From: Limnoperna fortunei
Lineage: Eukaryota > Mollusca > Bivalvia > Mytilida > Modiolidae
Length of the DNA: 64,000 nucleotides
NCBI GenBank assembly: GCA_944474755.1
Contig: OX104117.1
Location: forward strand, 44,781,222 to 44,845,221
Direction: 5' to 3'
The notes beneath the pieces are model-generated. The model was not told the origin of the DNA and did no database searches. It saw nothing but the letters and a program-made list of their open reading frames with translations. Shown here piece by piece: positions 32,540 through 56,760 of the stretch; the stretch's first letter is position 1; the number at the start of each line of letters is the position of its first letter. The translations under genes were made by a program, and so were the position numbers.

Positions 32540-33367
32540 TGCTATACAAATTTTCTATTCCAAATTTTGACAACTTTACTGTTTTTAGAAATAAAGCAAA
32601 GAAACAAAAACGAAATAGTGGTGGTATAATTATTTATGTTAAAAATAAAAATCGAAAAGGTATTGAATTTTTGTAATCCGATTCAGATTTATATATATGT
32701 GGAATATATTTTCTTACAAAATCTTCACCACACTATGATAATGAATATGAAACATTAGAAATGGAAGTTAATACTCCTTCTTAAAATGGAAAAATACTTA
32801 TAATGGGTAACTGCAATTCAAGAACATCAAATTCACCAGATTATATTCTAAATGATAATGAAAATCAATGTCTGAAAGACATCTTGCCAACAAATTATAG
32901 TGCTGATTTTCAATTACAAGAAAGTCGCAAGATAAAATACTGAATTCTCAAGGACGTGAGTTGTTGGATCTTTGTGTTTGTGGACAAATTCGAATTTTAA
33001 ATGGTAGATATATAGGAGATCTTCTAGGAAACATGGCTTGTTTAAATAAAAATGGTTGTAGTGTTGTAGATTATGCCATTGCATCTGAAAGTCTATTTTC
33101 TTCAGTAAAATACTTCCAAATTAATAATCCAACTCATTTTTCTGATCATAATCAATTGTCTTTACAACTTAAATGTCAGAACAAAACTAATGCACCTTAT
33201 GATAACTATGAAAAACAAAAATTTAGTTTCAAATGGACGAACTACTCAAAAATGATACTTGAAAAGAGCTTTAATAAAAATGTACCCATGACAATATAGT
33301 TAACTTTCAAAACACAATTTTTCAAAATAATATAAATGGTGTCAATAGTGCAAATGACACAATCTCC

Positions 33368-33401
<34 letters not shown>

Positions 33402-35770: not shown

Positions 35771-36584
35771 TGATTCTACTACATGATCTATATGTTGCTA
35801 ATTTTTGTTTATGTATGCCTTTAACCCTTCACGGGGTATAACTGTGCTTTATTTGACATTCTGAGTATCCAAAAGAAGATATGCAACGATTTTCTTAAAT
35901 ACTACCTGATCGCATGTACTTAAACATGTCATTGACCAGTTTCATCTATTCATCTTTAGTTATAACAAAAGTTTTCTTGGAATAATTTTATCAATTTCTA
36001 CATCATATTATAATATTATATAATTTGCCTTACCTAAACACGCTTATGATTAAATTCAACAGTAAAACGTTTGCAATGACAAAGTAAAATCCAAGCAGTA
36101 TAGGATTAACATATCTGCTGACAGCTGTTGGACATCTGGGCTTCATGTTTGTAGAGTAAATAGTCACATTAAAAGAGCACATTGGTTCTTCAACTGCAAT
36201 TAGTCAAATAGCAAATGGTTAATTGCATCATTACGTCGATCTCTGTTCTCGATCTGAATATTTTAGAATGGGCTAAAATACAAAGGAACAGTTCGTTATT
36301 GTTTATTTTGATGAAAAAGCCGTAAAGATAAAAAAAAAATCATCTATATTTGTCGCTTTAAAGGTGCCGGATTTTACTTGTATACCAAGTGTGCAGACCT
36401 ATTTACAATACTGCAGACGATTTTTCTCCTCTTTTGACCAAGAACAAGTGTTGTTTTCCGGGGAGAGTAGTAGTATTCTCCATTATTTCTATCGTATCGA
36501 CTTTTATCTATTATTGATTAATTCAGTATAAATTAATACTAAACAGACTTATTGTAGACAAAAAAGGCACGGAACGACGAAAGG
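35771..36584. other. Stretch without recognisable genes
   Basis: AT-rich; no motif recognised. Confidence 0.4.
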
Positions 36585-36596
36585 TCAAACCATATA

Positions 36597-36862
36597 GGGG
36601 CCTCGGTGGCCGAGTGGTCAAGGTAGTTCGTCTACTAATGATCACGTGGTCTGTCAACACTGAGATTGCGGGTTCGATTCTCACTGCAGGCAGGGTGTAC
36701 TCGACTCCAATCTTAATTGACAAGGATTGCCAGTTTTCCTACCGCAGGTCGGGGGTTTTCTCCGGGTACTCCGGCTTCCTCCCCCAATAAAAACTGGACG
36801 CCATGATATAGCTGAAAAATTGCTGAAAGTGGCGTTAAACACCATCAAACAAACAAAAACAA
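36597..36862 (+). mobile_element. Complete tRNA-derived SINE (266 bp) with target duplication
   Basis: Best-preserved copy: box A tggccgagtgg at 36606-36616, box B ggttcgattc at 36671-36680, full core and a ggcgttaaacacc tail with caaacaaacaaaaa. Flanked by the 12-bp duplication tcaaaccatata at 36585-36596 and 36863-36874. Very close to the copy at 15206, so it is a recent insertion of the same subfamily. Confidence 0.93.
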
Positions 36863-37246
36863 TCAAACCATATAAAGATCCATAAACCAGACAGACACAC
36901 TGTATTGAAATGGATATGTACAAGAACAGATATTTCATTTGTATATTAAGATAATTGGTATTCAGATATTTAGTTGATTGATGCTTAACCTCAAGCAAAA
37001 AATATTTCAGTTGTATTCAGGACGTGAACAATTGCAAATTAAATATATAAACCATGCTTTTATATTAAAATATGATCTCGTACAAATTATAATGTTATAT
37101 ATATATGTACACTTATGAAGAAAAAGGATTTAAAGTATAAATGATTAAACAGCATATTATAATAGGAAAATAATTAGACAGTGAAAATAATTACAGATAA
37201 GTATACTCTACTGTATAAATTAATTTCTTTTAAAAATATGAAATTG

Positions 37247-37507
37247 TTTGTTTGAATGATGTTTAACGCCACTTACAGCCATGTTTCAGCTACTTGATGA
37301 CGTCTGGTTTTTATTGGGGGATGAAGCCAGAGTACTCGTAGAAAAACCCCGACCCTTCGGTAGGAAAACTGACAATCATTTTCAATTAAGATTGGAGTCG
37401 AGTACGCACTACCCGCAGTGAAACTCGAACCCGCCACCCCTGTGTTGACAGACAACTTGATTACTAGTAGACGAACTACCTTAACCCCTCGGCCACCGAG
37501 GCGCCAC
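37247..37507 (-). mobile_element. tRNA-derived SINE, minus strand, with target duplication
   Basis: Inverted copy: tail at 37247 (tttgtttgaatg), tRNA-like head ending at 37507 (rc ggcgcctcggtggccgag). Flanking duplication tatgaaattg at 37237-37246 and 37508-37517. Diverged in core and box B compared with 36597. Confidence 0.88.
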
Positions 37508-37517
37508 TATGAAATTG

Positions 37518-39190
37518 TAAACAAGCTAGTATTCAAAAGTTACCGAATATGGACCATGTAAAAATATCCATTAAGATATGATGGTTTATAATATATGGAC
37601 TGTTTCATTGACATACTCGAGTCTCTTGGTTCGATACTTAAAATATGACCAAGACACCACCTTGTTAAAACATTTAATGAAGTTGATAATGAATTTTGAG
37701 GTCTTAACCTCTCAGTTAGTATACACAATTTTTCTAAAAATATAATTTAAAATAACTAAAAAGGGTTTTTACGTAAATAACGATGTAAGATTACAGAAAA
37801 AGTCAATCTGTATCCCAATAGATACCAAAGATTTCAGCTAAATTCGAACTATTTTCAGAATGAATTGGTTTTTAACTTAGCAATGTGCTTAAGCATAGAG
37901 ACCCGATAATAAATCGGAACAGATCTTCTGATAAAGCAACAATTTTCAGTTCAAGAAGAGTAGCTTGGGCTTCAGCATTAAATACTGAAGATGCAGTTGA
38001 TATGCGGCGAGATTTAACGCTTTGTTCAAAGACAGCGACTGCAACTACTGAATCAATCTGAAAAATACCTGAATGATCAGGGTAGCAAGATTTTATTTAT
38101 GTAAAATGTTATATAATCAAAGAGTTTGTGGCGGACTTCTTGTCCTCTGAAATCCTAAATCCCGGTTTGGTTTATCCATAAGGAATTTGGAGGAACTTTA
38201 GTAGAGGCTAGTTTATCAAAACGTAAGAATTTCACCGGGGATCTTTTTTCATATGAGAATTTATTTTTATGCCATAATGTTGCATTATATTCTAATGTTT
38301 TTAAAGACTGTTATCTTCAAGAGTCGTGAAAACATTCGGAGCAGGACTTGTAGGATATGTATTTAATTTAGTTGCAATATTTCATCTATATTCAGGACGA
38401 GAACAGGTTAACAAACTATAAATCAATTCGGGAAATGAGATGTACTTAATGCAACAAATTTATGAAAAGTATGATGCATTATGAAGGAACGGAAAATTTT
38501 GTAACGGCTTCAACGTTTGGATTGCTCTATGAGTCAAGTAGACGGACTCTCTCAAGATGATCCCAGAATCCATCTAAGCGAACACAGAGCGATGAGCTCT
38601 ACGGCAATTGTGTGTCACGTGATCAAAGTCTGCTTAATGCTGATATTGACCTTTTCGTCATGAGTCAAAAAACCGTCATAAAGTGAAAGATAAAGAGCAC
38701 AAAAATTAATTTTAAAGGCAGACTTAAAAATAAATTTGACATCGATAAAAAATAAATGTTCTATTTAAAAATAACAACACAAATTTTATACGATTTTTTG
38801 CAATGTGTAAATCGCTCTATTAAAAACTTAAAATCATATGACAATCATGTGACGTCACCATTAAATAGAAAGACGTCATGTGACCACAGGAATTTAGAGG
38901 CCCTGTTATAGGGTGTTCGGAAGTAACGCCAAGTATTAAATGTGGTGCAAACATTATAAATAAATAATTAAACGTCCTATTCCAATGCAAATAATATAGT
39001 GTTTACAAAAATTTACTTGCAAGCTGTTTGTGTTCTGATTTATTTTAAAAATTACAGTCATGACAGTAGCGTGATACATGTACTACGGTTCCGCATAGTG
39101 ACAGGTCCCGTGTTCAATAAAATGAAATATAGACCAATATATACGTAATTTAAAAAAACACAATACAACAAACAAACTAGAACAAGTCAA
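37518..39190. other. Stretch without recognisable genes
   Basis: AT-rich; no coding motif or repeat recognised. Confidence 0.4.
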
Positions 39191-39536
39191 CTAAAACTGT
39201 ACACTTACAAATATCACCAAATCGGCGTATTTATGTCTATGCCCGCCAACATAAAACATCCCACTGTGAATGGAATGTATCCATAAAAACAAACGAATCC
39301 ATAATAATATATTATTTCTCCAAAGAACACATTCTAATCGGACACGTAATTGATCAAACATCCTAATATAGCACATTTGGATATTTTTCGCCAATGCAAA
39401 CAGTATGTCAACGTCACTTTTTTCAATCATGACCCTTAATTTTCATTGGTCATTGGTCGTTTAAAAAGGGCGGGGTCCAAATAGGGGTAATGGGGATAAA
39501 GATAGCAACACTGACCAAAGAGGGGCGGGGACAGTC
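39191..39536 (-). promoter_or_regulatory. Candidate promoter and first exon of an unknown gene
   Basis: On the minus strand two GC boxes (ccccgcccc near 39520-39530 and ccccgccc near 39468-39475) are followed by a TTTAAA and two ccaatg words. An ATG at 39430 then opens a 79-codon frame with a hydrophobic, Trp-rich stretch (LLWIRLFLWIHSIHSGMFY). The frame runs over tttg|gtaagt-type bases at about 39205-39215 that could be a splice donor. This is the only GC-box cluster noticed in the window. No protein family is recognised and no second exon was found. Confidence 0.25.
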
Positions 39537-40951
39537 TGTCCAAAATTGTCTAGATTCTTAATGACGTACAGGTATATGCATCTTACCAAAAGTCTGTTAT
39601 AACTTAATAGATAGATAGATAATTATTTGACTTTCAATAGTAACTTCTTGTTGACGCTATAAGAAAAATAGCAAAGAAAAACGACCGAACAACAAGAGCC
39701 AAAAGTCAAGGGACAGTTAAAAATCCGGATATAGACAAACGCAACACAAATACCAAAAACACTAAAAACAGCAAGAGAGTAACCTGAACCCAATAAAAAC
39801 CATGGGTACATGTATACATGATAGTGAAATAGTGTAATCGATGAACAAAAGTAAAACAAGGAATTGTGCAAAAAATTAAAAAAAAATAATAAAGAACTAT
39901 ATTATCTGTGCTCGCATTTTGGCAATGTCAACTCCATATTACTAAATGAAAAGAGTTAAATTTAGGTGTTAGTTTCCTTTCTTTTCTGTGGGATTAATAA
40001 TAATTATTTTGTAACCAAAATATCTAAGTTCCAAAGCAATTTATCACAACTGAGTATGAAGATCTTCGGGATTATATGAATGATTACCGGGGAAAATCGA
40101 TACGGATCTCATGTCCTTCCCGTCGTACGTTTTTTGGTCTTTAGGTAGTAAATTTCAACTTTGTCTCATTTCCGGTTTTTTACATGCGAACTGAAGATTC
40201 ATACCGTATTAAGGAGCAGAAAGTTTTCTTGGGTAACACACATTTCTTGATCTTAAGCGTCATTTAATGTTGAATTTATTAGAAATTTATATCTTGTATT
40301 TGATTAAAAGAGAACACAATTATTGAGGCCTATTTGTTTAAAATAACCTAAAGTCTATTAAAACTTCCACCCTTGCAATTGGGACATCTTTTGGTGGTTG
40401 GAAAGTACCATACCACTTCCAAAATATATCCAAACCTTTGAAAATTGAACACACTCTTTTCAACTACACCAAATTACTCATAATCCATCATATTTCATGC
40501 AATTTTATATAAATGTTTTTTCAAAGATTCTTATTTCCAATAAATCCAAAATGCATTACAATAACAGGAAAAAAAGGCAAAAAAAATTACGAAGGAAAAA
40601 CACAATTTTATGGGAAATAACGAGATGCGAAAGAACATTAATTGTGGTATCGTACATTATTACTAAGTCAAAGTCGGGCGGGAACCCACTTAAATTGTCT
40701 TGATTCCGCTTAGTTAAAATGTCGCGTAATGCTTGGCGATTTGTGAATGATTCTATCCATTCCCAATATAGATTATAATTAAGACACTTTGCTAAATATC
40801 AAACACACGCAACATTTTTAAGGTGGAAATTTGAAAGGTAAACGCAAAATGCTTCTTGGTCAGTTCACCGTACTACTCTTCTGTACACACGGTCTCTAAC
40901 TGGGCGCTCTAGACACAGGCATCTAGTCGCCTACCAGAAATTTTTTTGTCA
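39537..40951. other. Stretch without recognisable genes
   Basis: Contains a short gata run near 39610. Otherwise there is no recognised motif up to the satellite. Confidence 0.4.
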
Positions 40952-41206
40952 TATGACGGTGTTTCTTGTCATAAATTTACACATAGACTGACCAACGAAT
41001 GGCCTTAGTCATTGAGTGTCAATATAAATAAATAACGTGAACAATCACAACATATTCATCTTAAACTTTCTCATTTTAAATTAACCCAAAACTTTTTTAA
41101 TAGTTGCTTCTCAGTCCGCTAACCGGGGACGTGCCGTGCTGTTACTTGGCTTTGCTCAAATATTCCAACAAGATGTAATCAAAATTATCAAGGTGACAAA
41201 TTCATT

Positions 41207-41250
41207 ACGCCAGACGCGCGTTTCGTCTACATAAGACTCATCAGTGGCGT
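41207..41250 (-). ncRNA. Type I hammerhead ribozyme, unit 1
   Basis: Read on the minus strand: stem I strand ACGCCA, core CUGAUGA, stem II GUCU/AGAC with loop UAUGU, core GAAA, a very short stem III (ACG/CGU) and the cleavage triplet GUC, then stem I partner UGGCGU pairing fully with ACGCCA. All invariant core positions are present. Cleavage is predicted between 41213 and 41212. The minimal stem III is known from Schistosoma and newt hammerheads, which act best as dimers; a tandem array supplies that. Confidence 0.92.
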
Positions 41251-41755
41251 TTAACTATAAATGTTTAAGATATTCTTCATTGGGAGATGGAATAATATTT
41301 TTCTCATTGGGAGATGGAATAATATAAGTCCACTGGGATCGTGTAAATACACAATACAGGCAGTTCAAAATATTATATAAAGGGTCTAAAAGAATGCTGC
41401 TGAACCAGTACACTTATTTAGTATCGGATCGACAAACATGACGATACAGCATAAACAAAAAATAATAATATACAAGTCTAGAAGATTATGCAACGATACA
41501 TATGACGGTGTTTCTTGTCATAAATTTAGACACAGACTAACCAACGAATGGCCGTAGTCATTGAGTGTCAATATAAATAAATAACGTGAACAATCACAAC
41601 ATATTCATCTTAAACTTTCTCATTTTAAATTAACCCAAAACTTTTTTAATAGTTGCTTCTCAGTCCGCTAACCGGGGACGTGCCGTGCTGTTACTTGCCT
41701 TTGCTCAAATATTCCAACAAGATGTAATCAAAATTATCAAGGTGACAAATTCATT

Positions 41756-41799
41756 ACGCCAGACGCGCGTTTCGTCTACATAAGACTCATCAGTGGCGT
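41756..41799 (-). ncRNA. Hammerhead ribozyme, unit 2
   Basis: Core identical to unit 1. Predicted cleavage 41762/41761. Confidence 0.9.
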
Positions 41800-42304
41800 T
41801 TAACTATAAATGTTTAAGATATTCTTCATTGGGAGATGGAATAATATTTTTCTCATTGGGAGATGGAATAATATAAGTCCACTGGGATCGTGTAAATACA
41901 CAATACAGGCAGTTCAAAATATTATATAAAGGGTCTAAAAGAATGCTGCTGAACCAGTACACTTATTTAGTATCGGATCGACAAACATGACGATACAGCA
42001 TAAACAAAAAATAATAATATACAAGTCTAGAAGAGTATGCAACGATACATATGACGGTGTTTCTTGTCATAAATTTAGACACAGACTGACCAACGAATGG
42101 CCGTAGTCATTGAGTGTCAATATAAATAAATAACGTGAACAATCACAACATATTCATCTTAAACTTTCTCATTTTAAATTAACCCAAAACTTTTTTAATA
42201 GTTGCTTCTCAGTCCGCTAACCGGGGACGTGCCGTGCTGTTACTTGGCTTTGCTCAAATATTCCAACAACATGTAATCAAAATTATCAAGGTGACAAATT
42301 CATT

Positions 42305-42348
42305 ACGCCAGACGCGCGTTTCGTCTACATAAGACTCATCAGTGGCGT
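42305..42348 (-). ncRNA. Hammerhead ribozyme, unit 3
   Basis: Core intact. Predicted cleavage 42311/42310. The 3-bp unit deletion lies outside it. Confidence 0.9.
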
Positions 42349-42850
42349 TTAACTATAAATGTTTAAGATATTCTTCATTGGGAGATGGAATATTTTTTTC
42401 ATTGGGAGATGGAATAATATAAGTCCACTGGGATCGTGTAAATACACAATACAGGCAGTTCAAAATATTATATAAAGGGTCTAAAAGAATGCTGCTGAAC
42501 CAGTACACTTATTTAGTATCGGATCGACAAACATGACGATACAGCATAAACAAAAAATAATAATATACAAGTCTAGAAGATTATGCAACGATACATATGA
42601 CGGTGTTTCTTGTCATAAATTTAGACACAGACTGACCAACGAATGGCCTTAGTCATTGAGTGTCAATATAAATAAATAACGTGAACAATCACAACATATT
42701 CATCTTAAACTTTCTCATTTTAAATTAACCCAAAACTTTTTTAATAGTTGCTTCTCAGTCCGCTAACCGGGGACGTGCCGTGCTGTTACTTGGCTTTGCT
42801 CAAATATTCCAACAAGATGTAATCAAAATTATCAAGGTGACAAATTCATT

Positions 42851-42894
42851 ACGCCAGACGCGCGTTTCGTCTACATAAGACTCATCAGTGGCGT
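42851..42894 (-). ncRNA. Hammerhead ribozyme, unit 4
   Basis: Core intact. Predicted cleavage 42857/42856. Confidence 0.9.
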
Positions 42895-43399
42895 TTAACT
42901 ATAAATGTTTAAGATATTCTTCATTGGGAGATGGAATAATATTTTTCTCATTGGGAGATGGAATAATATAAGTCCACTGGGATCGTGTAAATACACAATA
43001 CAGGCAGTTCAAAATATTATATAAAGGGTCTAAAAGAATGCTGCTTAACCAGTACACTTATTTAGTATCGGATCGACAAACATGACGATACAGCATAAAC
43101 AAAAAATAATAATATACAAGTCTAGAAGATTATGCAACGATACATATGACGGTGTTTCTTGTCATAAATTTAGACACAGACTGACCAACGAATGGCCGTA
43201 GTCATTGAGTGTCAATATAAATGAATAACGTGAACAATCACAACATATTCATCTTAAACTTTCTCATTTTAAATTAACCCAAAACTTTTTTAATAGTTGC
43301 TTCTCAGTCCGCTAACCGGGGACGTGCCGTGCTGTTACTTGGCTTTGCTCAAATATTCCAACAAGATGTAATCAAAATTATCAAGGTGACAAATTCATT

Positions 43400-43443
43400 A
43401 CGCCAGACGCGCGTTTCGTCTACATAAGACTCATCAGTGGCGT
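43400..43443 (-). ncRNA. Hammerhead ribozyme, unit 5
   Basis: Core intact. Predicted cleavage 43406/43405. Confidence 0.9.
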
Positions 43444-43948
43444 TTAACTATAAATGTTTAAGATATTCTTCATTGGGAGATGGAATAATATTTTTCTCAT
43501 TGGGAGATGGAATAATATAAGTCCACTGGGATCGTGTAAATACACAATACAGGCAGTTCAAAATATTATATAAAGGGTCTAAAAGAATGCTGCTGAACCA
43601 GTACACTTATTTAGTATCGGATCGACAAACATGACGATACAGCATAAACAAAAAATAATAATATACAAGTCTAGAAGATTATGCAACGATACATATGACG
43701 GTGTTTCTTGTCATAAATTTAGACACAGACTGACCAACGAATGGCCGTAGTCATTGAGTGTCAATATAAATAAATAATGTGAACAATCACAACATATTCA
43801 TCTTAAACTTTCTCATTTTAAATTAACCCAAAACTTTTTTAATAGTTGCTTCTCAGTCCGCTAACCGGGGACGTGCCGTGCTGTTACTTGGCTTTGCTCA
43901 AATATTCCAACAAGATGTAATCAAAATTATCAAGGTGACAAATTCATT

Positions 43949-43992
43949 ACGCCAGACTCGCGCTTCGTCTACATAAGACTCATCAGTGGCGT
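43949..43992 (-). ncRNA. Hammerhead ribozyme, unit 6, mutated at GAAA and stem III
   Basis: The minus strand reads GAAGCGCGAGUC instead of GAAACGCGCGUC: the last A of GAAA is G and a stem III base is changed. The pair next to the cleavage site becomes G-U and stem III loses a pair, so activity is probably lost or reduced. Confidence 0.85.
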
Positions 43993-44497
43993 TTAACTAT
44001 AAATGTTTAAGATATTCTTCATTGGGAGATGGAATAATATTTTTTTCATTGGGAGATGGAATAATATAAGTCCACTGGGATCGTGTAAATACACAATACA
44101 GGCAGTTCAAAATATTATATAAAGGGTCTAAAAGAATGCTGCTGAACCAGTACACTTATTTAGTATCGGATCGACAAACATGACGATACAGCATAAACAA
44201 AAAATAATAATATACAAGTCTAGAAGATTATGCAACGATACATATGACGGTGTTTCTTGTCATAAATTTAGACACAGACTGACCAACGAATGGCCTTAGT
44301 CATTGAGTGTCAATATAAATAAATAACGTGAACAATCACAACATATTCATCTTAAACTTTCTCATTTTAAATTAACCCAAAACTTTTTTAATAGTTGCTT
44401 CTCAGTCCGCTAACCGGGGACGTGCCGTGCTGTTACTTGGCTTTGCTCAAATATTCCAACAAGATTTAATTAAAATTATCAAGGTGACAAATTCATT

Positions 44498-44541
44498 ACG
44501 CCAGACGCGCGTTTCGTCTACATAAGACTCATCAGTGGCGT
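44498..44541 (-). ncRNA. Hammerhead ribozyme, unit 7
   Basis: Core intact. Predicted cleavage 44504/44503. Confidence 0.9.
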
Positions 44542-45046
44542 TTAACTATAAATGTTTAAGATATTCTTCATTGGGAGATGGAATAATATTTTTTTCATTG
44601 GGAGATGGAATAATATAAGTCCACTGGGATCGTGTAACTACACAATACAGGCAGTTCAAAATATTATATAAAGGGTCTAAAAGAATGCTGCTGAACCAGT
44701 ACACTTATTTAGTATCGGATCGACAAACATGACGATACAGCATAAACAAAAAATAATAATATACAAGTCTAGAAGATTATGCAACGATACATATGACGGT
44801 GTTTCTTGTCATAAATTTAGACACAGACTGACCAACGAATGGCCTTAGTCATTGAGTGTCAATATAAATAAATAACGTGAACAATCACAACATATTCATC
44901 TTAAACTTTCTCATTTTAAATTAACCTAAAACTTTTTTAATAGTTGCTTCTCAGTCCGCTAACCGGGGACGTGCCGTGCTGTTACTTGGCTTTGCTCAAA
45001 TATTCCAACAAGATGTAATCAAAATTATCAAGGTGACAAATTCATT

Positions 45047-45090
45047 ACGCCAGACGCGCGTTTCGTCTACATAAGACTCATCAGTGGCGT
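45047..45090 (-). ncRNA. Hammerhead ribozyme, unit 8
   Basis: Core intact. Predicted cleavage 45053/45052. Confidence 0.9.
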
Positions 45091-45590
45091 TTAACTATAA
45101 ATGTTTAAGATATTCTTCATTGGGAGATGGAATAATATTTTTCTCATTGGGAGATGGAATAATATAAGTCCACTGGGATCGTGTAAATACACAATACAGG
45201 CAGTTCAAAATATTATATAAAGGGTCTAAAAGAATGCTGCTGAACCAGTACACTTATTTAGTATCGGATCGACAAACATGACGATACAGCATAAACAAAA
45301 AATAATAATATACAAGTCTAGAAGATTATGCAACGATACATATGACGGTGTTTCTTGTCATAAATTTAGACACAGACTGACCAACGAATGGCCTTAGTCA
45401 TTGAGTGTCAATATAAATAAATAACGTGAACAATCACAACATATTCATCTTAAACTTTCTCATTTTAAATTAACCCAAAACTTTTTTAATAGTTGCTTCT
45501 CAGTCCGCTAACCGGGGACGTGCCGTGCTGTTACTTGGCTTTGCTCAAATATTCCAACAAGATGTAATCAAAATTATCAAGGTGACAAAT

Positions 45591-45707
45591 GAAAAAAATA
45601 TTATTCCATCTCCCAATGAAGAATATCTTAAACATTTATAGTTAAACGCCACTGATGAGTCTTATGTAGACGAAACGCGCGTCTGGCGTAATGAATTTGT
45701 CACCTTG
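45591..45707 (+). repeat. 117-bp inverted insertion within unit 9
   Basis: After ggtgacaaat (ending 45590) the sequence switches to the reverse complement of unit bases, from the gggagatggaataat block back to ccttgat, until 45707. It then resumes at ctgttacttgg, re-duplicating 63 bp. 117 + 63 = 180 bp accounts exactly for the 729-bp spacing. Confidence 0.9.
45646..45689 (+). ncRNA. Inverted hammerhead ribozyme (plus strand)
   Basis: Full intact core on the plus strand: ACGCCA 45646-45651, CTGATGA 45652-45658, stem II, GAAA, GTC ending 45683, TGGCGT 45684-45689. It is the only copy that would cleave plus-strand transcripts, between 45683 and 45684. Confidence 0.92.
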
Positions 45708-45775
45708 CTGTTACTTGGCTTTGCTCAAATATTCCAACAAGATGTAATCAAAATTATCAAGGTGACAAATTCATT

Positions 45776-45819
45776 ACGCCAGACGCGCGTTTCGTCTACA
45801 TAAGACTCATCAGTGGCGT
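45776..45819 (-). ncRNA. Hammerhead ribozyme, unit 9
   Basis: Core intact, 87 bp beyond the inverted copy; the two could pair as a long hairpin. Predicted cleavage 45782/45781. Confidence 0.9.
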
Positions 45820-46324
45820 TTAACTATAAATGTTTAAGATATTCTTCATTGGGAGATGGAATAATATTTTTCTCATTGGGAGATGGAATAATATAAGTCC
45901 ACTGGGATCGTGTAAATACACAATACAGGCAGTTCAAAATATTATATAAAGGGTCTAAAAGAATGCTGCTGAACCAGTACACTTATTTAGTATCGGATCG
46001 ACAAACATGACGATACAGCATAAACAAAAAATAATAATATACAAGTCTAGAAGATTATGCAACGATACATATGACGGTGTTTCTTGTCATAAATTTAGAC
46101 ACAGACTGACCAACGAATGGCCTTAGTCATTGAGTGTCAATATAAATAAATAACGTGAACAATCACAACATATTCATCTTAAACTTTCTCATTTTAAATT
46201 AACCCAAAACTTTTTTAATAGTTGCTTCTCAGTCCGCTAACCGGGGACGTGCCGTGCTGTTACTTGGCTTTGCTCAAATATTCCAACAAGATTTAATTAA
46301 AATTATCAAGGTGACAAATTCATT

Positions 46325-46368
46325 ACGCCAGACGCGCGTTTCGTCTACATAAGACTCATCAGTGGCGT
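46325..46368 (-). ncRNA. Hammerhead ribozyme, unit 10
   Basis: Core intact. Predicted cleavage 46331/46330. Confidence 0.9.
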
Positions 46369-46873
46369 TTAACTATAAATGTTTAAGATATTCTTCATTG
46401 GGAGATGGAATAATATTTTTTTCATTGGGAGATGGAATAATATAAGTCCACTGGGATCGTGTAAATACACAATACAGGCAGTTCAAAATATTATATAAAG
46501 GGTCTAAAAGAATGCTGCTGAACCAGTACACTTATTTAGTATCGGATCGACAAACATGACGATACAGCATAAACAAAAAATAATAATATACAAGTCTAGA
46601 AGATTATGCAACGATACATATGACGGTGTTTCTTGTCATAAATTTAGACACAGACTGACCAACGAATGGCCTTAGTCATTGAGTGTCAATATAAATAAAT
46701 AACGTGAACAATCACAACATATTCATCTTAAACTTTCTCATTTTAAATTAACCCAAAACTTTTTTAATAGTTGCTTCTCATTCCGCTAACCGGGGACGTG
46801 CCGTGCTGTTACTTGGCTTTGCTCAAATATTCCAACAAGATTTAATTAAAATTATCAAGGTGACAAATTCATT

Positions 46874-46917
46874 ACGCCAGACGCGCGTTTCGTCTACATA
46901 AGACTCATCAGTGGCGT
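46874..46917 (-). ncRNA. Hammerhead ribozyme, unit 11
   Basis: Core intact. Predicted cleavage 46880/46879. Confidence 0.9.
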
Positions 46918-47422
46918 TTAACTATAAATGTTTAAGATATTCTTCATTGGGAGATGGAATAATATTTTTTTCATTGGGAGATGGAATAATATAAGTCCAC
47001 TGGGATCGTGTAAATACACAATACAGGCAGTTCAAAATATTATATAAAGGGTCTAAAAGAATGCTGCTGAACCAGTACACTTATTTAGTATCGGATCGAC
47101 AAACATGACGATACAGCATAAACAAAAAATAATAATATACAAGTCGAGAAGATTATGCAACGATACATATGACGGTGTTTCTTGTCATAAATTTAGACAC
47201 AGACTGACCAACGAATGGCCTTAGTCATTGAGTGTCAATATAAATAAATAACGTGAACAATCACAACATATTCATCTTAAACTTTCTCATTTTAAATTAA
47301 CCCAAAACTTTTTTAATAGTTGCTTCTCAGTCCGCTAACCGGGGACGTGCCGTGCTGTTACTTGGCTTTGCTCAAATATTCCAACAAGATGTAATCAAAA
47401 TTATCAAGGTGACAAATTCATT

Positions 47423-47466
47423 ACGCCAGACGCGCGTTTCGTCTACATAAGACTCATCAGTGGCGT
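47423..47466 (-). ncRNA. Hammerhead ribozyme, unit 12
   Basis: Core intact. Predicted cleavage 47429/47428. Confidence 0.9.
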
Positions 47467-47971
47467 TTAACTATAAATGTTTAAGATATTCTTCATTGGG
47501 AGATGGAATAATATTTTTCTCATTGGGAGATGGAATAATATAAGTCCACTGGGATCGTGTAAATACACAATACAGGCAGTTCAAAATATTATATAAAGGG
47601 TCTAAAAGAATGCTGCTGAACCAGTACACTTATTTAGTATCGGATCGACAAACATGACGATACAGCATAAACAAAAAATAATAATATACAAGTCTAGAAG
47701 ATTATGCAACGATACATATGACGGTGTTTCTTGTCATAAATTTAGACACAGACTGACCAACGAATGGCCTTAGTCATTGAGTGTCAATATAAATAAATAA
47801 CGTGAACAATCACAACATATTCATCTTAAACTTTCTCATTTTAAATTAACCCAAAACTTTTTTAATAGTTGCTTCTCAGTCCGCTAACCGGGGACGTGCC
47901 GTGCTGTTACTTGGCTTTGCTCAAATATTCCAAAAAGATTTAATTAAAATTATCAAGGTGACAAATTCATT

Positions 47972-48015
47972 ACGCCAGACGCGCGTTTCGTCTACATAAG
48001 ACTAATCAGTGGCGT
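47972..48015 (-). ncRNA. Hammerhead ribozyme, unit 13, G8 mutated
   Basis: actaatcag on the plus strand makes the minus-strand core CUGAUUA instead of CUGAUGA. The changed base corresponds to G8, the general acid in catalysis, so this copy is predicted dead. Confidence 0.88.
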
Positions 48016-48520
48016 TTAACTATAAATGTTTAAGATATTCTTCATTGGGAGATGGAATAATATTTTTTTCATTGGGAGATGGAATAATATAAGTCCACTG
48101 GGATCGTGTAAATACACAATACAGGCAGTTCAAAATATTATATAAAGGGTCTAAAAGAATGCTGCTGAACCAGTACACTTATTTAGTATCGGATCGACAA
48201 ACATGACGATACAGCATAAACAAAAAATAATAATATACAAGTCTAGAAGATTATGCAACGATACATATGACGGTGTTTCTTGTCATAAATTTAGACACAG
48301 ACTGACCAACGAATGGCCTTAGTCATTGAGTGTCAATATAAATAAATAACGTGAACAATCACAACATATTCATCTTAAACTTTCTCATTTTAAATTAACC
48401 CAAAACTTTTTTAATAGTTGCTTCTCAGTCCGCTAACCGGGGACGTGCCGTGCTGTTACTTGGCTTTGCTCAAATATTCCAACAAGATTTAATTAAAATT
48501 AGCAAGGTGACAAATTCATT

Positions 48521-48564
48521 ACGCCAGACGCGCGTTTCGTCTACATAAGACTCATCAGTGGCGT
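48521..48564 (-). ncRNA. Hammerhead ribozyme, unit 14
   Basis: Core intact. Predicted cleavage 48527/48526. Confidence 0.9.
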
Positions 48565-49069
48565 TTAACTATAAATGTTTAAGATATTCTTCATTGGGAG
48601 ATGGAATAATATTTTTTTCATTGGGAGATGGAATAATATAAGTCCACTGGGATCGTGTAAATACACAATACAGGCAGTTCAAAATATTATATAAAGGGTC
48701 TAAAAGAATGCTGCTGAACCAGTACACTTATTTAGTATCGGATCGACAAACATGACGATACAGCATAAACAAAAAATAATAATATACAAGTCTAGAAGAT
48801 TATGCAACGATACATATGACGGTGTTTCTTGTCATAAATTTAGACACAGACTGACCAACGAATGGCCTTAGTCATTGAGTGTCAATATAAATAAATAACG
48901 TGAACAATCACAACATATTCATCTTAAACTTTCTCATTTTAAATTAACCCAAAACTTTTTTAATAGTTGCTTCTCAGTCCGCTAACCGGGGACGTGCCGT
49001 GCTGTTACTTGGCTTTGCTCAAATATTCCAACAAGATGTAATCAAAATTATCAAGGTGACAAATTCATT

Positions 49070-49113
49070 ACGCCAGACGCGCGTTTCGTCTACATAAGAC
49101 TCATCAGTGGCGT
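49070..49113 (-). ncRNA. Hammerhead ribozyme, unit 15
   Basis: Core intact; last one. The partial final unit stops before its ribozyme. Predicted cleavage 49076/49075. Confidence 0.9.
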
Positions 49114-49619
49114 TTAACTATAAATGTTTAAGATATTCTTCATTGGGAGATGGAATAATATTTTTTTCATTGGGAGATGGAATAATATAAGTCCACTGGG
49201 ATCGTGTAAATACACAATACAGACAGTTCAAAATATTATATAAAGGGTCTAAAAGAATGCTGCTGAACCAGTACACTTATTTAGTATCGGATCGACAAAC
49301 ATGACGATACAGCATAAACAAAAAATAATAATATACAAGTCTAGAAGATTATGCAACGATACATATGACGGTGTTTCTTGTCATAAATTTAGACACAGAC
49401 TGACCAACAAATGGCCTTAGTCATTGAGTGTCAATATAAATAAATAACGTGAACAATCACAACATATTCATCTTAAACTTTCTCATTTTAAATTAACCCA
49501 AAACTTTTTTAATAGTTGCTTCTCAGTCCGCTAACCGGGGACGTGCCGTGCTGTTACTTGGCTTTGCTCAAATATTCCAACAAGATGTAATCAAAATTAT
49601 CAAGTTTTGGGTTAATTTA

Positions 49620-50090
49620 TTGTTACTAATAACATCAAGATGCAGTGGTTACAATATATAGTAAATCGTAGAACTTAAGATACAAATAAATTTGTTAATA
49701 CAATACATGTAATAGATAATCAAAACTGTACGTGAGAAGAAGTAGAAACTGTCGAGAATTTACTGTGGAATTGTGATAATATACAGAACTTTTCATTAGC
49801 TGTTGAATCTTGGGTTTTGTCAAAAGGTTTAAGTGTTCCTTTTACAAAAACGTCAGTTCTTTTTGGAGACACAACAAAAACAAAGGTGATCCTTTGTATC
49901 TTATTTTTATTTAAACCTGAACCATATTCATATTGTATCATATATTATGGTAAAGAATTATATTTGACAAATATGTTAAAAATTCCTTTGAAATAGAGAA
50001 GTAAATAGCAGTTAAAAAATTACTAAATGAGTTTGATAAAATGTGGAATATTTTGTATTTGTGTATTTAATTGACATGCTTAAATTAGCG
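49620..50090 (+). pseudogene. LINE C-terminal fragment
   Basis: Plus-strand translation contains the LINE C-terminal Cys/His pattern, read with one changed residue as EEVETVENLLWNCDNIQNF, then VESWVLSKGLSVPFTKTSVL and ILCILFLFKPEPYS. No catalytic part. It begins right after the satellite, so the satellite may have grown next to or within it. Confidence 0.5.
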
Positions 50091-51419
50091 TAAAGAAGAT
50101 AGAAAATTTATGCTGGCAACATCTTTTTCAATATAGATTTTGCCCTTTTTCCTCTTTTTCAATTAGATCATTTTCTGTAGTATCAATACTTAGTCATTCC
50201 TTTGAACCTCTATTATTGCATACATTTTAAATGTTAAATTCTAAAACAACTACACTTATACCATAGAAACCTATATATTTGTTATTTATTGACTTTGAAT
50301 GTTACAGCATCTGATAGTACAGACAACATGAAGTTTCTATCTTGAACAATATTATATACATGAAACTTAATCTGTTTCTAGTTGTACAATGGTGCCCCCC
50401 CCCCCTGTGCGCTCAGCTTTTTGCTTGCATAGTTTTATTATTCCATATTGTAACTGTATACTGCTAAAATTCAATTAAAAAAATCTACACGATAACACGT
50501 CTATATTTGATATTATGCCTCCTATGTTGTTGACATGTCCGAAATCGTCCTTGACATTTGCTGCGGGAATATAACATAGGAAGTCAGCAATTTGAGTTTC
50601 TAAAGGAACCTAGCGTTGTTTTTTTTTTAAAAAGATCGTCTGCTTTCGTAACGTTCAATGGTATTCGGACAAACCGCTACACTATTCCTGCCTTAACTGC
50701 AGACGACATTACCCGAAGGATTTCGAATACACTACAATCACCTCTTCCAAACACACTAACACACACTTCCATTGTAATTTAGGTCAAACTTTACTTTATA
50801 AAAATTGCCCATTAAAAATGAAAATCCGCCGCATTTCATACGCTAAATAACTGGAAAATAATTGTGTAATTCAAATTAAACATTTTTGGATCTACAACAG
50901 GAGCACAAGCTTGACTAAACGCGATAAGCGTTTAAAATTTGTCTGCCAAAAAAAACCGCCTCCTGACACGATAACATTGAGTACAGATTTTTTGTGTTAC
51001 AGCAAATGTATAGATTTCAAATAATTGTAAAAATTAAAAACAAAAACGTGTACACTCAGGTGCTCTGTACGATTAAGCAGTGCCTACCTCTAATAGGACA
51101 CCCGTCGAGTTACTAGTTTTCATGTCTAGGAAAAAACTCGGAATGGTAAATTGAATGCAATAAATGAGAATTGCGGATAAGTCATTTCTTTCCTAAACGC
51201 AAATCGAAATGATCAAAAGAACTCAAAATTCAGTTGTTCACTCCACTTAATTTTATGGCGCTAGAGACACATTCTGTTTTACAATTATAATAGGAAAACA
51301 ATCACTGGCACAGAGACCGTCACGATCTTTCCTTGAGAAAACGGGGAGTGAAGAATTTGTTACTGGAAGATCGACTGTTGAATAAGAACCATTCCAAGAA
51401 TGTAAATATATATATAGAC
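50091..51419. other. Stretch without recognisable genes
   Basis: AT-rich, with an 11-C run at 50395-50405. No conserved motif was seen. Confidence 0.4.
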
Positions 51420-51778
51420 ATATTATATGGTTGTCACAATACTTAGACGTTTGTATGTATATATATATATACGTCTACAAATGAAGCCCAACACTGTTAG
51501 AATTGAGATTTTAACACTGTCAAATTTTTGCTTACCCTCGGCCAAATCCGCTATATAAAAATATAGCTTCATTAACCTGGGTGAATCGTAGACATAGACA
51601 TAGTACATGTGTACTAGCGTGTGACGATGGAATTTTCGTGACCAATACACATTAATTTGACAGTAATCCAATTCTGTATTTTTGTATATATTATATAGGA
51701 TGACAAAGTTACTTGTCATACAGTCACAGTAAGTAATTTATATACAAACGTCTAAGTATTGTGACAACCATATAATAT
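51420..51778. repeat. 37-bp perfect inverted repeat around 285 bp
   Basis: The left arm 51420-51456 (starting atattatatggttgtc) is the exact reverse complement of 51742-51778. The left arm is followed by a TA-rich palindromic run. It lies about 100 bp upstream of the Penelope endonuclease ORF and may belong to that element's terminal structure. Confidence 0.85.
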
Positions 51779-51874
51779 ATCTATCCAGCGGATTTCTGAA
51801 ACATCAGAAATACAGGGTTAATATCAAATATTTATATATACAAAAATGCAGAAGATCAGTTAGTCCGAGCAGAA

Positions 51875-52327
51875 ATGTCGTCATGTAGCCGCCAATCGGG
51901 GCAATGTTGCATCTGTGGTGACGGTCGTTGTATGAGATGTGATCACATACAACACACCAAACACTTCACCAGCGCATTAAATGGCAAACAATTTGACATC
52001 CATGTCAATTTAAATTGCAAAAGTGAGAACATCATATACCTGTTACAGTGTGGTATATGCAATCTCCAGTATGTTGGTGAGTATGTGCAACGATTCAGCA
52101 AACGAATGAACAGGCACAGAAGCGACACAAGATGCAAACCCAAATTACCCCTTACTAGGCACCTATGTACGCACGGCACTGCAATAGCTGAAATTTTTAA
52201 TAAACTCAGGGTGACCCAAATAGACCATAACCCAAGGTGGACACCCAAACAGAGAAAAGAGAAAGAAAGTTTTTGGATAAAAACATTGGGAACATCATTT
52301 CCGAAGGGAATTAATAAAAAATTATAG
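51875..52327 (+). CDS. Penelope-like element GIY-YIG endonuclease, C-terminal part (150 aa)
   Basis: Encodes the C-terminal endonuclease of a Penelope-like retroelement, which nicks DNA for target-primed reverse transcription. Residues 11-22 contain cysteines in CC-x-C and C-x2-C spacing, followed by H24, H27 and H30, a probable zinc-binding part. Residues 52-82 form the GIY-YIG core: IIYLLQCGICNLQYVGEYVQ with Y55, C59, C62 and Y66-V67-G68, then R77 and H81-R82. A Trp (W134) and a terminal FPKGINKKL complete the usual C-terminal end. The Glu of the common VGET is present (E69), with Y replacing T. The RT domain upstream is missing (5'-truncated). The ATG at 51875 is the first in frame, not necessarily a native start. 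Confidence 0.8.
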   Translation: MSSCSRQSGQCCICGDGRCMRCDHIQHTKHFTSALNGKQFDIHVNLNCKSENIIYLLQCGICNLQYVGEYVQRFSKRMNRHRSDTRCKPKLPLTRHLCTHGTAIAEIFNKLRVTQIDHNPRWTPKQRKEKESFWIKTLGTSFPKGINKKL

Positions 52328-52586
52328 GACCTTAGACCAGATACAAACATGGTCTTCGATTATTCATGTAGAATTACGTGTCGTTATATTTATGTTAAAA
52401 CTGCTTTTTTGTATATATATATATTGATTGTAACCGTATAAATAGTGCTACATATTTATACACCTGTACATACTTGTAATAGCACTAACAAAAAACTTTT
52501 GTTCGTTAATTAGTAGATATCGTATACATCACATACGTATAACGACAAAAACTGTTTACCTGTTATTGTCATTCGTTGTAAAAATA

Positions 52587-52613
52587 CTGACGAAGCCAGT
52601 TGGTCAGGTGAAA
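52587..52613 (+). ncRNA. Hammerhead-like core downstream of the Penelope ORF
   Basis: ctgacga (52587-52593) and gaaa (52610-52613) flank 16 bases that can form only a weak stem II (A-U, C-G, C-G with a bulge). Penelope-like elements are known to carry type I hammerheads in their terminal repeats. No stem III or cleavage triplet is clear, so this is a relic at best. Confidence 0.3.
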
Positions 52614-52696
52614 TATTTGTGCAATTTTGTAAAGTGTAAAACTTTGTTTTGGCTTTAATTTTGTATCTAGATGTTGTTGTACATATTTTTAACCGA

Positions 52697-52732
52697 ATAT
52701 ATATATATATAATATATATATATATATATAAT
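52697..52732. repeat. (AT)n microsatellite
   Basis: Alternating AT for about 36 bp with one interruption, followed by a T-run. Confidence 0.9.
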
Positions 52733-53371
52733 TTTTTTTTCACAATATATGAGTGCATATTATTTTTTTAAGTATATTGTATTAATTTCTTCTAGTGGTT
52801 TTTTTATGGCAAAATGCAAAATAAAAATAAATGGTTGAATAAGTAAGGCGTCAATATTCACAGTAATTTATAAACTTCAACAATTCCAGTGTGAAATCTT
52901 GTCTATTATCAGAATAGAAAAATGTTGTTCTCCTACACCCACCTTAACTGGGAGACTTGCAATTTTATCTGTATCCGGAAATGAGGAGCAGGAGTAATTT
53001 ATCAATTGGAACATCCCACGCAGCCATCTTCATAAAATTTTCCTAACAATTATCCTTCAATGTAGATCTTTGGTGTTATTTTCGAATTTGATGTTTTAAT
53101 TTATTGTTATTTTTGGAACCACTTGAAGTTTGTGTAGGAAGCTGACTAAGGGGATATGTTTTTGCAGTGTGTCGGTTTATTATGTCTGAACTGGTAACTA
53201 ATATAAATGTTTACTAGAGTCAGTTCAGCTATACTTTTACGCACGAGGTTTTTCTGGTACATGATTGAATATAGGTTTAATATTGCGGTAGCACAGCAGT
53301 TAAGATAGCATGAAATTTGTGCTTACTATATTGTTTTAATGAAGTATTTTGTTGTATTGTAGGATACTTAC

Positions 53372-53546
53372 CATCCATATCATCCAAGAAATTGCTTGCA
53401 AACAATGGCCAAAACCCAGATCTTATAATTTTCCATACTATATCCAATGTAAATTCCGAGTTTGGATATGCTATTGAATACGATGCAACACCATACGATA
53501 TCATAAAAATTACTATGATTCCCACAAACAACGCAAAATCTGGGAA
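53372..53546 (-). CDS. TRPM-like exon 5 of 5 seen (S5-pore)
   Basis: S5 FALFVGIIVIFMISYGVASY and a pore-helix region WKIIRSGFWPLFASNFLDDM, then a canonical donor g|gtaagt in phase 1. The position of the usual FGE/YGE-like filter reads FAS, which is unusual. Confidence 0.85.
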
Positions 53547-55958
53547 CTGAAACATAATGCAGACAATCTTATAATAAAACTGCGCTTTGTATCTTGTACT
53601 CAATAATTTTATAATATAAATTGCATGTCTTTAACATTTCCATAATTCTGATGAAGAAATTAAAATTGTATTTAGAAGAACCGATGATTCCTTATCATAA
53701 AAAGAGCCGATGGTATTGCGTAAAACAACGTATAACATTCTGATAACTGATGACATTTTATGTATACAACTCCGATTCATTACTTCTGACACAATATGTT
53801 AAGTGTGTAGTGGTATGTTTCAGAAACTAGCATTTGTTAAATTTATATTCTTAACACAGAACCTTAGGTTAAGTGGCCTTATACGCTGGTGTTTGTGTAT
53901 GTGTATATGTACATCAAAAGTAAAACAACAGGTTTATCTGTTGTAGCCATTTTACACGCCAGATAAATGTTATTCCTTCATTTAAGGGGGCTTATTAGGT
54001 AGAAAAGTCGTAAACGGTCAATACAGAACGAATTTTCGAAAATTTATTTTCAATTTTAAGTTTAAAACAATGTATAAAGTACCATTCCAGCTATCACTCG
54101 CAGAGTAGGGCCCATTTTCTTGGACAAGGAGAAGATATGTAGTATTCTCAGGTAAAACATCATTAAACTGCATGCATATAAAACTCTTGCAGCTTCCAGA
54201 CTCTCGTTTGATCCTACATATTTGCAAACTACAGCAGCAGCAAACAATACTATGGACATGATATCAATTACATTCCAAAAGTCACTAATATAATTGATAC
54301 ATTTTCCGGTAAACTGTTGTGCAAATGGTGCTGTAAACAGCTTAAAATAAATATAAATCAATATAAATAAATGTTCATCATTTTTGTTGTAGGCAAGCAA
54401 CATTTACAGATATTTACAGCTGGCTTAAAATTTATAGATATTTCTAGTCGTGAATACTCAAATTGATTAAAGTTAAGTTTGTCAAATAAAAAAATTTACC
54501 CGGATAACTTGCGGACAGTATTTGTTTAATAATATTCAGTCGTTATTTTGTAGTGTAAACATATTTTAATTTAATGTATGCAATACGTTAAACATTCTCT
54601 GATTTATGGTTGTATAATTATGTTTTTCTATTTGCACATCAATAAACCAAATGCTTAAAATATCCGATCGTTACATATGTCACTAAATAAATAATTAATG
54701 TATAAATTTTCAAGTCGATAATCTCGGAATGAAAAAAAATGTTCCAGATTAAATACACTAGTGTTACAGGTTTCATACCTGTCTGATTTCATCGCAAAAT
54801 ATGCTAATAACCCACAATATTAGAAGCACGTCAATGCGGGAGAAATCTCCGTTCATTGTTATGATGGTGTAACTGACCAACAGAAGGAATATAAAATGGG
54901 AAATCTGAAAAAAATATTATTTTAACTTTCATGATGAAAGAAGAGTAATTTGATGATTAGTAAATCGTTTTATTCATATTGCGACAAATATAAATAACAA
55001 CCATTTAGTGTAGAAACTAACAGATGTCGGCTACTAAACAATTTTTTGTTACACTGAAACTTAGATGAAATAAAAAATAGTTGATTATAATGTTGTTCTC
55101 TTTAAATATTTTATATTTACCAAATTATTGATGTACACAATAAGGGGAGCACTGTAGAACTGTAAAACTCGTGAAACTCGTGAAACAAACATATGAGTTC
55201 TTGTTTTTGTGGAGTAGTCTTTATCTTCAAATGCATTCCAGTCCTTCATGCACAATACCAGTGGAGGGCAGAATATGCCCAACATACACTATTGTAGGAA
55301 ACACAGTTTATATAGATAAGTACATATAATGCTTATTGAACGAATTAAAAATACGTATTTGTTATATTACATATGAAAAGCAGAACTAAAATTTAAATTA
55401 CTATTATATTTTTGTTATAATGTTGTTTCATGTACATTAAAGCTGCGGAGTGCAGATTTTTGTCTTTATTAGTGTTATTACGACTTGTGGACTCTATATT
55501 GTTTAAGTAATATATAAATAATATTAAATAATTAACTGTGTCCACAACATCAAAACTATTATGACTGAAAACAAACAATGAAATATTTCTTTAGCAATGT
55601 TAAGTTGCTGCAAGACTTTATGCCAAAGATTTGCCTATATTATGATCAACTCAGATTGCTCGAATGCATCAAAAAGTAAAATGTACTTTTTCTTAAAAGA
55701 AATGTTTTTAAATGTTTTCACACATTTTGATTAGATTTCATATTTCTATCTACCTGAAATAATCCAATATCAAATGGCAAATCTCCCATAAGTTGCTTAT
55801 CCAACCAGCTATCGAAGTCTATTGAAGTTTTCATAGCGATGTCCATATACTTAAGATTACCCCAGGTTAACACTTTCGACTGCAAAATTTCTTGAGCATT
55901 TACATGCTCATTCTGCTGGTAAGCCTTTAGCATTTCAACAGCTATTTTAGAAAACTCC
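53372..55958 (-). CDS. TRPM-type cation channel gene, partial (five exons)
   Basis: Five exons on the minus strand: 55958-55754, 55288-55121, 54904-54779, 54340-54083 and 53546-53372. All have AG/GT borders, and the four internal junctions are all phase 0, so they read through as one protein of about 245 residues. Order: pre-S1 region, hydrophobic pre-S1 helix, S1 and S2 ending in the family signature CDEIRQ, S3 with FWNVIDIMSIVLF, S4 with YLRILHIFSLSKKMGP, S5 with FPDFALFVGIIVIFMISYGV and a pore helix. This is the transient receptor potential M architecture, a plasma-membrane Ca2+/cation channel. The N-terminal part (upstream of 55958) and S6, TRP helix and tail (downstream of 53372) were not found. 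Confidence 0.85.
54083..54340 (-). CDS. TRPM-like exon 4 of 5 seen (S3-S4)
   Basis: Exactly 86 codons. INYISDFWNVIDIMSIVLF (S3), then S4 with ARVLYACSLMMFYLRILHIF and the S4-S5 linker SKKMGPTLRVIAGM. Acceptor tattttaag; donor atg|gtactt. Confidence 0.88.
54779..54904 (-). CDS. TRPM-like exon 3 of 5 seen (S1-S2)
   Basis: Exactly 42 codons with no in-frame Met at its start, so it is recognisable only by splice sites. Encodes S1 (SHFIFLLLVSYTIIT), a short loop with MNGDFSRID and S2 (VLLILWVISIFCDEIRQ). EIRQ at the S2 end is a strong TRPM marker. Acceptor tttttttcag; donor cag|gtatga. Confidence 0.88.
55121..55288 (-). CDS. TRPM-like exon 2 of 5 seen
   Basis: Exactly 56 codons. Contains CMLGIFCPPLVLCMKDW (pre-S1 hydrophobic helix) and FVSRVSRVLQFYSAPLIVY, matching the FY-x-APIV element ahead of S1. 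Acceptor cctacaatag; donor g|gtaaat. Confidence 0.8.
55754..55958 (-). CDS. TRPM-like exon 1 of 5 seen (pre-S1 region)
   Basis: Acceptor tttgcttcag, donor cag|gtagat. Encodes EFSKIAVEMLKAYQQNEH, a helical repeat like the last TRPM homology region, then TWGNLKYMDIAMKTSIDFDS. Enters with two bases of a split codon, so at least one more exon lies upstream. Confidence 0.75.
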
Positions 55959-56760
55959 CTGAAGCAAATTATTACTAATACGTAAAATAGTAGAAGACTT
56001 CGATAAACTGTGTTATGCTCTAGGTATATGAAGAAATTTTTATACATGATTAGATTTGATCAAATTATTTGGTTCACACGTTACAGAAATAAATGTTATA
56101 GAAGCTTATTTCCAAAATGCGATTGTTTTCCTTTCACATTAATAATGTCGCATACATACATTATTCTTTCAGTATTCTACTATAGTTGAAATACCACGCA
56201 GGATATTTATTTTGAAATCAATAAATCGATACCAGTTTATCTGTTATAATGAGCACTGGACGATAATCCAACATTTAATCAATCACTTATTTACACTTAT
56301 AAATGTAACATAATCTTTTAAACATGGAATAAGAACAACGAAATCCCAAAATCAATTGATCAGCTAAGAACAATTGATTGCAATACGAATATGACCGTTG
56401 AATATAAAAACATGTAGAACATATATTCGTTGTTTGCAATACTAACTGGCATTCGCAATTATTTCTATAATCAACTCCATGAATTTAACGATTGTTTTAT
56501 ATATTTTTTAAATTATTGTTTACGGTGTTTTTCGATACATAATTAGAATTTTTTATTATTATGTTTGATATTTCAATATTTGTCTGCTTCTAGTTATAGT
56601 AGAGCACCCTTTAAAGTCTTACTACTATTTAAAAAAGAGGAGAAACATTCAAATAAAAAACTCAAAATAAAATTAATCACTAAAGTACAGAACACCAAAT
56701 TACCAAAAATAAGAACAGAAAGGACAAATACAATGGCCTAAACTACAGGCTTAAAACAGT
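55959..56760. other. Stretch without recognisable genes
   Basis: Presumably intronic to the TRPM gene or upstream of it. AT-rich; no further exon was recognised. Confidence 0.4.

Follow-up and report, generated by a model that had tools for sequence, protein, structure and literature searches.

The window analysed here (64,000 nt of the Limnoperna fortunei contig OX104117.1; all coordinates are window positions) contains a retrozyme-like array, built of tandem 549-bp units with type I hammerhead ribozymes, which lies in sense within an intron predicted for a TRPM-type channel gene. Each intact hammerhead copy is a predicted site of self-cleavage in RNA read through this intron, and we give this reading as a whole a probability of about 0.62. 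The sequence itself shows the array and its strand, the intact ribozyme cores and, on both sides, in-phase exons with splice signals. A first-pass annotation had already described a retrozyme-like satellite at this place, and the 15 sense copies in tandem bear out this layout. A 16th hammerhead, intact and on the plus strand, the sense intronic position in the TRPM-type gene and the predicted pairwise folding of the ribozymes go beyond it.

The array consists of 14 whole units and one partial unit at either end. One of the whole units is 546 bp long, one is 729 bp and contains an insert, and the rest are 549 bp. The whole units are 98.5-99.5% identical to the reference unit and the left partial one 98.1%. 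Matches of the 549-bp unit in a BLASTN comparison against the window were confined to 40,950-49,604. One array unit has a guanine plus cytosine (GC) content of 34.4%, and the array has no open frame of at least 70 amino acids. Tandem Repeats Finder gave 0 rows for the window, which is uninformative for this array because the longest period of the program is 500. On the RNA strand, counting from the predicted cut, the array begins at unit position 21 and finishes at position 263. The structure of its edges could reflect template switching during reverse transcription or repair. A direct duplication of ~21 bp (CATTGGGAGATGGAATAATAT) adjoins the ribozyme in each unit (for example at 41,278-41,325).

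40,950-49,604, minus strand: tandem array of 549-bp units
45,588-45,708, plus strand: inverted piece of unit within the 180-nt insert of one unit (right limit set by eye)
49,602-49,619, no strand assigned: inverted unit match of 18 nt at the right array edge, sharing 3 nt with the direct unit

Fourteen type I hammerheads (13 on the minus strand and one on the plus strand) exceeded the gathering threshold of 34 bits of the Rfam family RF00163, each with 37.9 bits and an E value of 5.5e-06, and a permissive search added two weaker minus copies below it, 14 of 16 being thus above the threshold. Fifteen minus copies had been announced by the first-pass annotation and this is the number found. Its assignment to type I hammerheads with an intact core also stands, with covariance scores far above background for 13 of the 15. 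The array hammerhead spans the full type I model (positions 1-45). The claim that every full unit keeps all core bases holds for these 13 copies, which are identical over 44 nt, and fails for the two damaged ones. The copy at 47,972-48,015 has the core CUGAUUA, in which G8 is changed, and the one at 43,949-43,992 is altered at A15.1 and at one stem III base. Likewise, spacing by exactly one unit was confirmed for 12 of the 14 intervals between minus hammerheads (549), the two others measuring 546 and 729.

41,207-41,250, minus strand: intact hammerhead (Rfam)
41,756-41,799, minus strand: intact hammerhead (Rfam)
42,305-42,348, minus strand: intact hammerhead (Rfam)
42,851-42,894, minus strand: intact hammerhead (Rfam)
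43,400-43,443, minus strand: intact hammerhead (Rfam)
43,949-43,992, minus strand: damaged hammerhead, changed at A15.1 and in stem III, 28.9 bits (permissive search)
44,498-44,541, minus strand: intact hammerhead (Rfam)
45,047-45,090, minus strand: intact hammerhead (Rfam)
45,646-45,689, plus strand: intact hammerhead in the inverted piece (Rfam)
45,776-45,819, minus strand: intact hammerhead (Rfam)
46,325-46,368, minus strand: intact hammerhead (Rfam)
46,874-46,917, minus strand: intact hammerhead (Rfam)
47,423-47,466, minus strand: intact hammerhead (Rfam)
47,972-48,015, minus strand: hammerhead with core G8 changed, 30.2 bits (permissive search)
48,521-48,564, minus strand: intact hammerhead (Rfam)
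49,070-49,113, minus strand: intact hammerhead (Rfam)

A scan of a viral contig collection with the hammerhead core pattern gave 0 matches. Two hexamers were also counted in the array: AATAAA occurs 0 times on the sense strand and 15 times antisense, but ATTAAA 21 times in sense. These counts were not used as evidence and amount to a single observation, because the units are copies of each other.

The exons predicted on either side of the array share its strand and encode a TRPM-type channel, which places the array in sense within an intron of 17,178 bp. The open frame at 54,065-54,403 matched TRPM channels (best E 1.3e-12) and the Pfam domain Ion_trans (E 9.1e-09), and the frame at 53,280-53,630, also on the minus strand, matched TRPM chains with a best E of 2.4e-05. 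Exons B, C and D have compatible phases and can be joined without a stop. The product of joined exons A-D, 254 amino acids long, matched TRPM5 over residues 13-248 with an E value of 2.1e-33, an alignment that spans the array intron. Given this sense position, transcription of the host gene would likely yield RNA that is predicted to be self-cutting. A search limited to titles and abstract openings, with most subscription papers outside its reach, found no hammerhead array in a TRPM intron. A further frame at 55,721-56,059 was considered as an upstream TRPM exon and is not claimed, the search of solved structures having given only an unrelated chain (E 0.93) and Pfam nothing useful.

54,065-54,403, minus strand: open frame with exon A of the TRPM-type gene (exon ends not set exactly)
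53,372-53,546, minus strand: exon B of the TRPM-type gene, AG acceptor and GTAAGT donor
36,194-53,371, minus strand: predicted host intron of 17,178 bp between exons B and C, with the array in sense
36,034-36,193, minus strand: exon C, last transmembrane helix, AG acceptor and GTAAGG donor
30,159-30,328, minus strand: exon D, TRP-helix region, AG acceptor and GTAAGT donor

Folding predictions indicate that neighbouring hammerheads pair with each other as a double hammerhead that leaves the core bases free. A lone 44-nt ribozyme adopts a structure other than the hammerhead at its minimum free energy (MFE) of -11.4 kcal/mol, with pairing probabilities of 0.91 for stem I, about 0.3 for stem II and 0.002 for stem III. 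The single hammerhead with a 2-bp stem III scores -8.1 against this MFE, and the 3-bp form leaves a loop of 2 nt. The sequence of stem III, ACGCGCGU, is palindromic, and the cofold of two ribozymes is exactly the double hammerhead, whose cofold MFE of -34.3 kcal/mol improves by 11.5 on that of two separate copies (2 x -11.4). The same structure is present between neighbours in the MFE fold of 624 nt of contiguous tandem sequence from the window, where the pairing probability is 0.92 for stem III, 0.94 and 0.60 for stem I, and 0.97 and 0.95 for stem II, the single hammerhead form being below 0.001 for stem I. The stem III mutant cofolded with itself gains 8.4 and loses the double hammerhead. 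The G8 mutant keeps the fold with an intact copy, as expected because the energy does not see catalysis.

The variants shared among units inform on how the array has grown. We aligned 16 rows (the 14 whole units and the partial unit at either end, insert columns dropped) and found four shared variant sites and 20 singleton columns. With the unit phased at the ribozyme cut there were two four-gamete violations. Among the four phases tried, zero violations were obtained only with the boundary between nt 38 and 208. In this phase the unit types along the RNA read P QQR QQR R Q PSS PSS, with an identity at lag 3 of 7/12 (p 0.0044 from 200,000 permutations, or 0.020 when the best lag among 1-6 is taken). 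This order suggests that the array was enlarged by duplicating three-unit blocks in DNA, rather than by one pass round a single RNA circle, although copying of a multi-unit circle could also have produced it. The high identity from which the first-pass annotation took recent amplification is confirmed. A single burst from one template is not supported, the shared variants pointing to block duplication.

In the reading that we prefer, read-through transcription of the host gene would give a multimeric minus-strand RNA of 549-nt units. Adjacent units would join via the palindromic stem III, ACGCGCGU, as the double hammerhead predicted by folding, and cleavage at the intact copies would release 549-nt monomers. 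By analogy with the published animal retrozymes, these would be circularised by a host ligase (PMC7229834). From the same published examples, the founding copy may have been placed by a partner reverse transcriptase, the best candidate being a Penelope-like element, and the later growth of the array would be by block duplication in DNA, as the shared variants point to. The low GC content, as published for animal retrozymes, and a GIY-YIG endonuclease fragment in this intron also speak for this reading.

Several observations weigh against this reading. The flanks of the array have no common exact word of at least 7 nt in either orientation that could represent a target-site duplication; a 4-nt TTGT seen by eye was not counted as one. 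Inside the array there is no sign that the ribozyme is conserved better than the remainder of the unit (singleton variant columns are 3 of 44 versus 17 of 505). Among 500 shuffled 44-mers, 18.4% self-dimerise as strongly as the ribozyme, so the gain in dimer energy is not special and only the shape is. The monomer is not highly self-paired in the one unit folded (z score +1.16), since 87 of 100 shuffles match or exceed its stability. The 549-bp unit is larger than the published ~170-400 nt. The mussel repeat cleaves at ~0.1 per min, with no stated requirement for a dimer (PMC7229834), and for an active Penelope-like element insertion in vitro is described as not needing ribozyme cleavage (PMC11167929).

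The array could instead be an inert satellite, a tandem repeat that undergoes decay within a large intron and whose ribozymes are passengers without effect in the animal. Two of the 15 sense hammerheads are damaged, the ribozyme lacks extra conservation, the blockwise order of variants is typical of satellites and the structure of the monomer is not unusual. Nevertheless, 13 of the 15 sense copies have the same 44-nt sequence, lying in sense within an intron would open them to transcription, and similar repeats in three animals are reported as transcribed and self-cleaving (PMC7229834), so that we consider this explanation unlikely, if still a serious one. The origin of the array could also have been a single step, in which a reverse transcriptase circled one 549-nt RNA many times and the whole tandem complementary DNA was inserted, the differences among units being later mutations or copying errors. 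This route has been proposed for retrozymes (PMC7229834), and here the two array ends fall at unit positions with no relation to each other (263 and 21 past the cut site). The inverted foldback on the right and the internal inverted piece are also what template switching might leave. The four variant sites common to non-adjacent units speak against it, since they cannot be explained by a single monomeric circle, although one of several units could give them, and we regard the one-step origin as rather improbable.

A third proposal, that the unit is the untranslated end (pseudo-long terminal repeat) of a Penelope-like element that lost its coding part and persists in tandem, brings in the neighbours of the array. 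A GIY-YIG endonuclease fragment is found at 51,800-52,324 within the same intron, and Penelope-like elements are known to bear type I hammerheads and to occur in tandem (PMC7761336, PMC11167929). The fragment is, however, on the opposite strand and 2.2 kb off, the array lacks any frame of at least 70 amino acids, and the published Penelope hammerheads are minimal (PMC7761336) whereas the one in the array reaches the full type I model (1-45). We judge this proposal very improbable.

The assignment of the fragment at 51,800-52,324 (plus strand) comes from protein comparisons, in which 15 of 27 candidate proteins matched with E values up to 0.001 and 51-61% identity, 14 of the 15 carrying a GIY-YIG Pfam domain. 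Its direct Pfam scoring was weak (E 0.03, below the cut-off). By its motif we take it to be of Penelope type. Between the array and this fragment, the only frame scanned (49,736-49,993) had no Pfam match. A hammerhead-like string past the fragment (CTGACGA...GAAA at 52,587) gave no hammerhead match and was dropped. Elsewhere in the window, a frame of 403 amino acids at 60,247-61,455 (minus strand) has a reverse transcriptase domain (RVT_1, E 2.4e-22). A scan of the viral contig collection for this reverse transcriptase gave six pattern stretches, none encoding a relative. The following intron of the TRPM-type gene contains, antisense to the gene at 32,907-34,661 (plus strand), frames that weakly match an endonuclease (E 0.00061) and a reverse transcriptase (E 1.3e-06), neither reaching its cut-off. 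Far from the array, a candidate hepatitis delta virus (HDV)-like ribozyme at 8747-8836 (plus strand) scored 31.5 bits with RF02682 (cut-off 44) and 23.5 bits with drz-agam-1 (cut-off 37). It has a P1 of CCTGCTC/GAGCAGG, a CCTCCTCGTGG loop and, by eye, a possible P2 of CTTCC/GGAAG, and lies ~100 nt past the open frame 7998-8648, which contains a FLYWCH zinc finger.

The position of the array raises the question of its effect on the host gene. The intact sense hammerheads lie 5.0-12.9 kb before the next exon, and we made a rough model of cutting with borrowed rates, 0.1 per min from the mussel ribozyme and 3.5-4.1 kb per min from mammalian RNA polymerase II (PMC7229834, PMC10919898). At 0.1 per min, 4-6% of transcripts would be uncut on reaching exon C, although any single ribozyme would have cut in 12-31% of transcripts. 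At 0.01 per min 72-76% would be uncut and at 0.8 per min practically none. As fast intronic ribozymes are reported to lower splicing and slow ones not (PMC10919898, citing Fong et al. 2009), the outcome for the host gene hinges on the true cleavage rate. The array might even act as a kinetic cutter of its host gene, with 13 slow hammerheads in series whose copy number tunes expression of the TRPM-type channel and an intron that supplies 549-nt retrozyme RNA, but we hold this to be quite improbable. If true, three-unit block duplications would change the copy number and so tune channel expression.

Whatever the effect, a series of sense ribozymes between intact-looking flanking exons makes testable what transcribes animal retrozymes and how they affect the genes in which they reside. 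The core-changed copy, the stem III mutant and the inverted copy provide natural controls within the array. The locus also lengthens the size of retrozyme-like units and predicts cutting by pairs of units rather than by single ones.

Animal retrozymes are known as abundant self-made RNA circles. The first-pass annotation had stated that hammerhead retrozymes are known in animals including mussels, as is indeed described for Mytilus galloprovincialis, with repeats of 350-390 bp and about 5000 ribozymes, and also that a period of 549 nt is longer than the known sizes, which agrees with the published ~170-400 nt RNAs (150-450 bp in the earlier work cited there; PMC7229834). The published description gives them a GC content under 45-50%, a highly self-paired monomer, no long terminal repeat (LTR), primer-binding site or polypurine tract, a target-site duplication, when present, of more than 4 bp, linear and circular RNA in tissue and copies dispersed in the genome (PMC7229834). 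Like the non-LTR retrozymes of animals, the array has a type I hammerhead per tandem repeat and many units, together with low GC, no coding frame and Penelope-like sequence nearby (PMC7229834). In contrast, its unit of 549 bp exceeds both the 350-390 bp of the mussel and the general range of ~170-400 nt, and its monomer is not highly self-paired (the mussel repeat being compared by description only; PMC7229834). A further difference is its sense position in a predicted host intron. In layout and predicted chemistry the array behaves as a retrozyme would. Unit size and self-pairing fall outside the published description, and for this reason we call the array a retrozyme-like variant and do not file it as a proven member. 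Animal retrozymes with type I hammerheads are already published; what is new is that the array lies in sense in an intron, that its units are predicted to pair, that its variants run in blocks and that a GIY-YIG endonuclease fragment shares the intron.

The satellite pDo500 of Dolichopoda cave crickets resembles the array in having a hammerhead per repeat of roughly 500 bp, by description and not by sequence, and its multimers are said to self-cleave into monomers, with both single and double hammerhead forms proposed (PMC2837043). Its ribozyme region is described as significantly better conserved than the rest across species, whereas no such difference is seen within this array (PMC2837043). 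Penelope-like elements with hammerheads share with the array the type I hammerhead and the tandem layout (PMC11167929, PMC7761336), but the array lacks reverse transcriptase and endonuclease and its ribozyme fits the full type I model. Some repeats of the W-element satellites of Schistosoma have hammerheads that cleave in vitro and are likewise satellite-like, although they differ in repeats and setting, the likeness being one of description and not of sequence (PMC8490949). Finally, the intronic Cpeb3 ribozyme also lies kilobases before the next exon (9.9 kb, versus 5.0-12.9 kb in the array). It is, however, one HDV-like ribozyme with a measured effect on its host gene, while the array offers 13 intact predicted hammerheads (PMC10919898).

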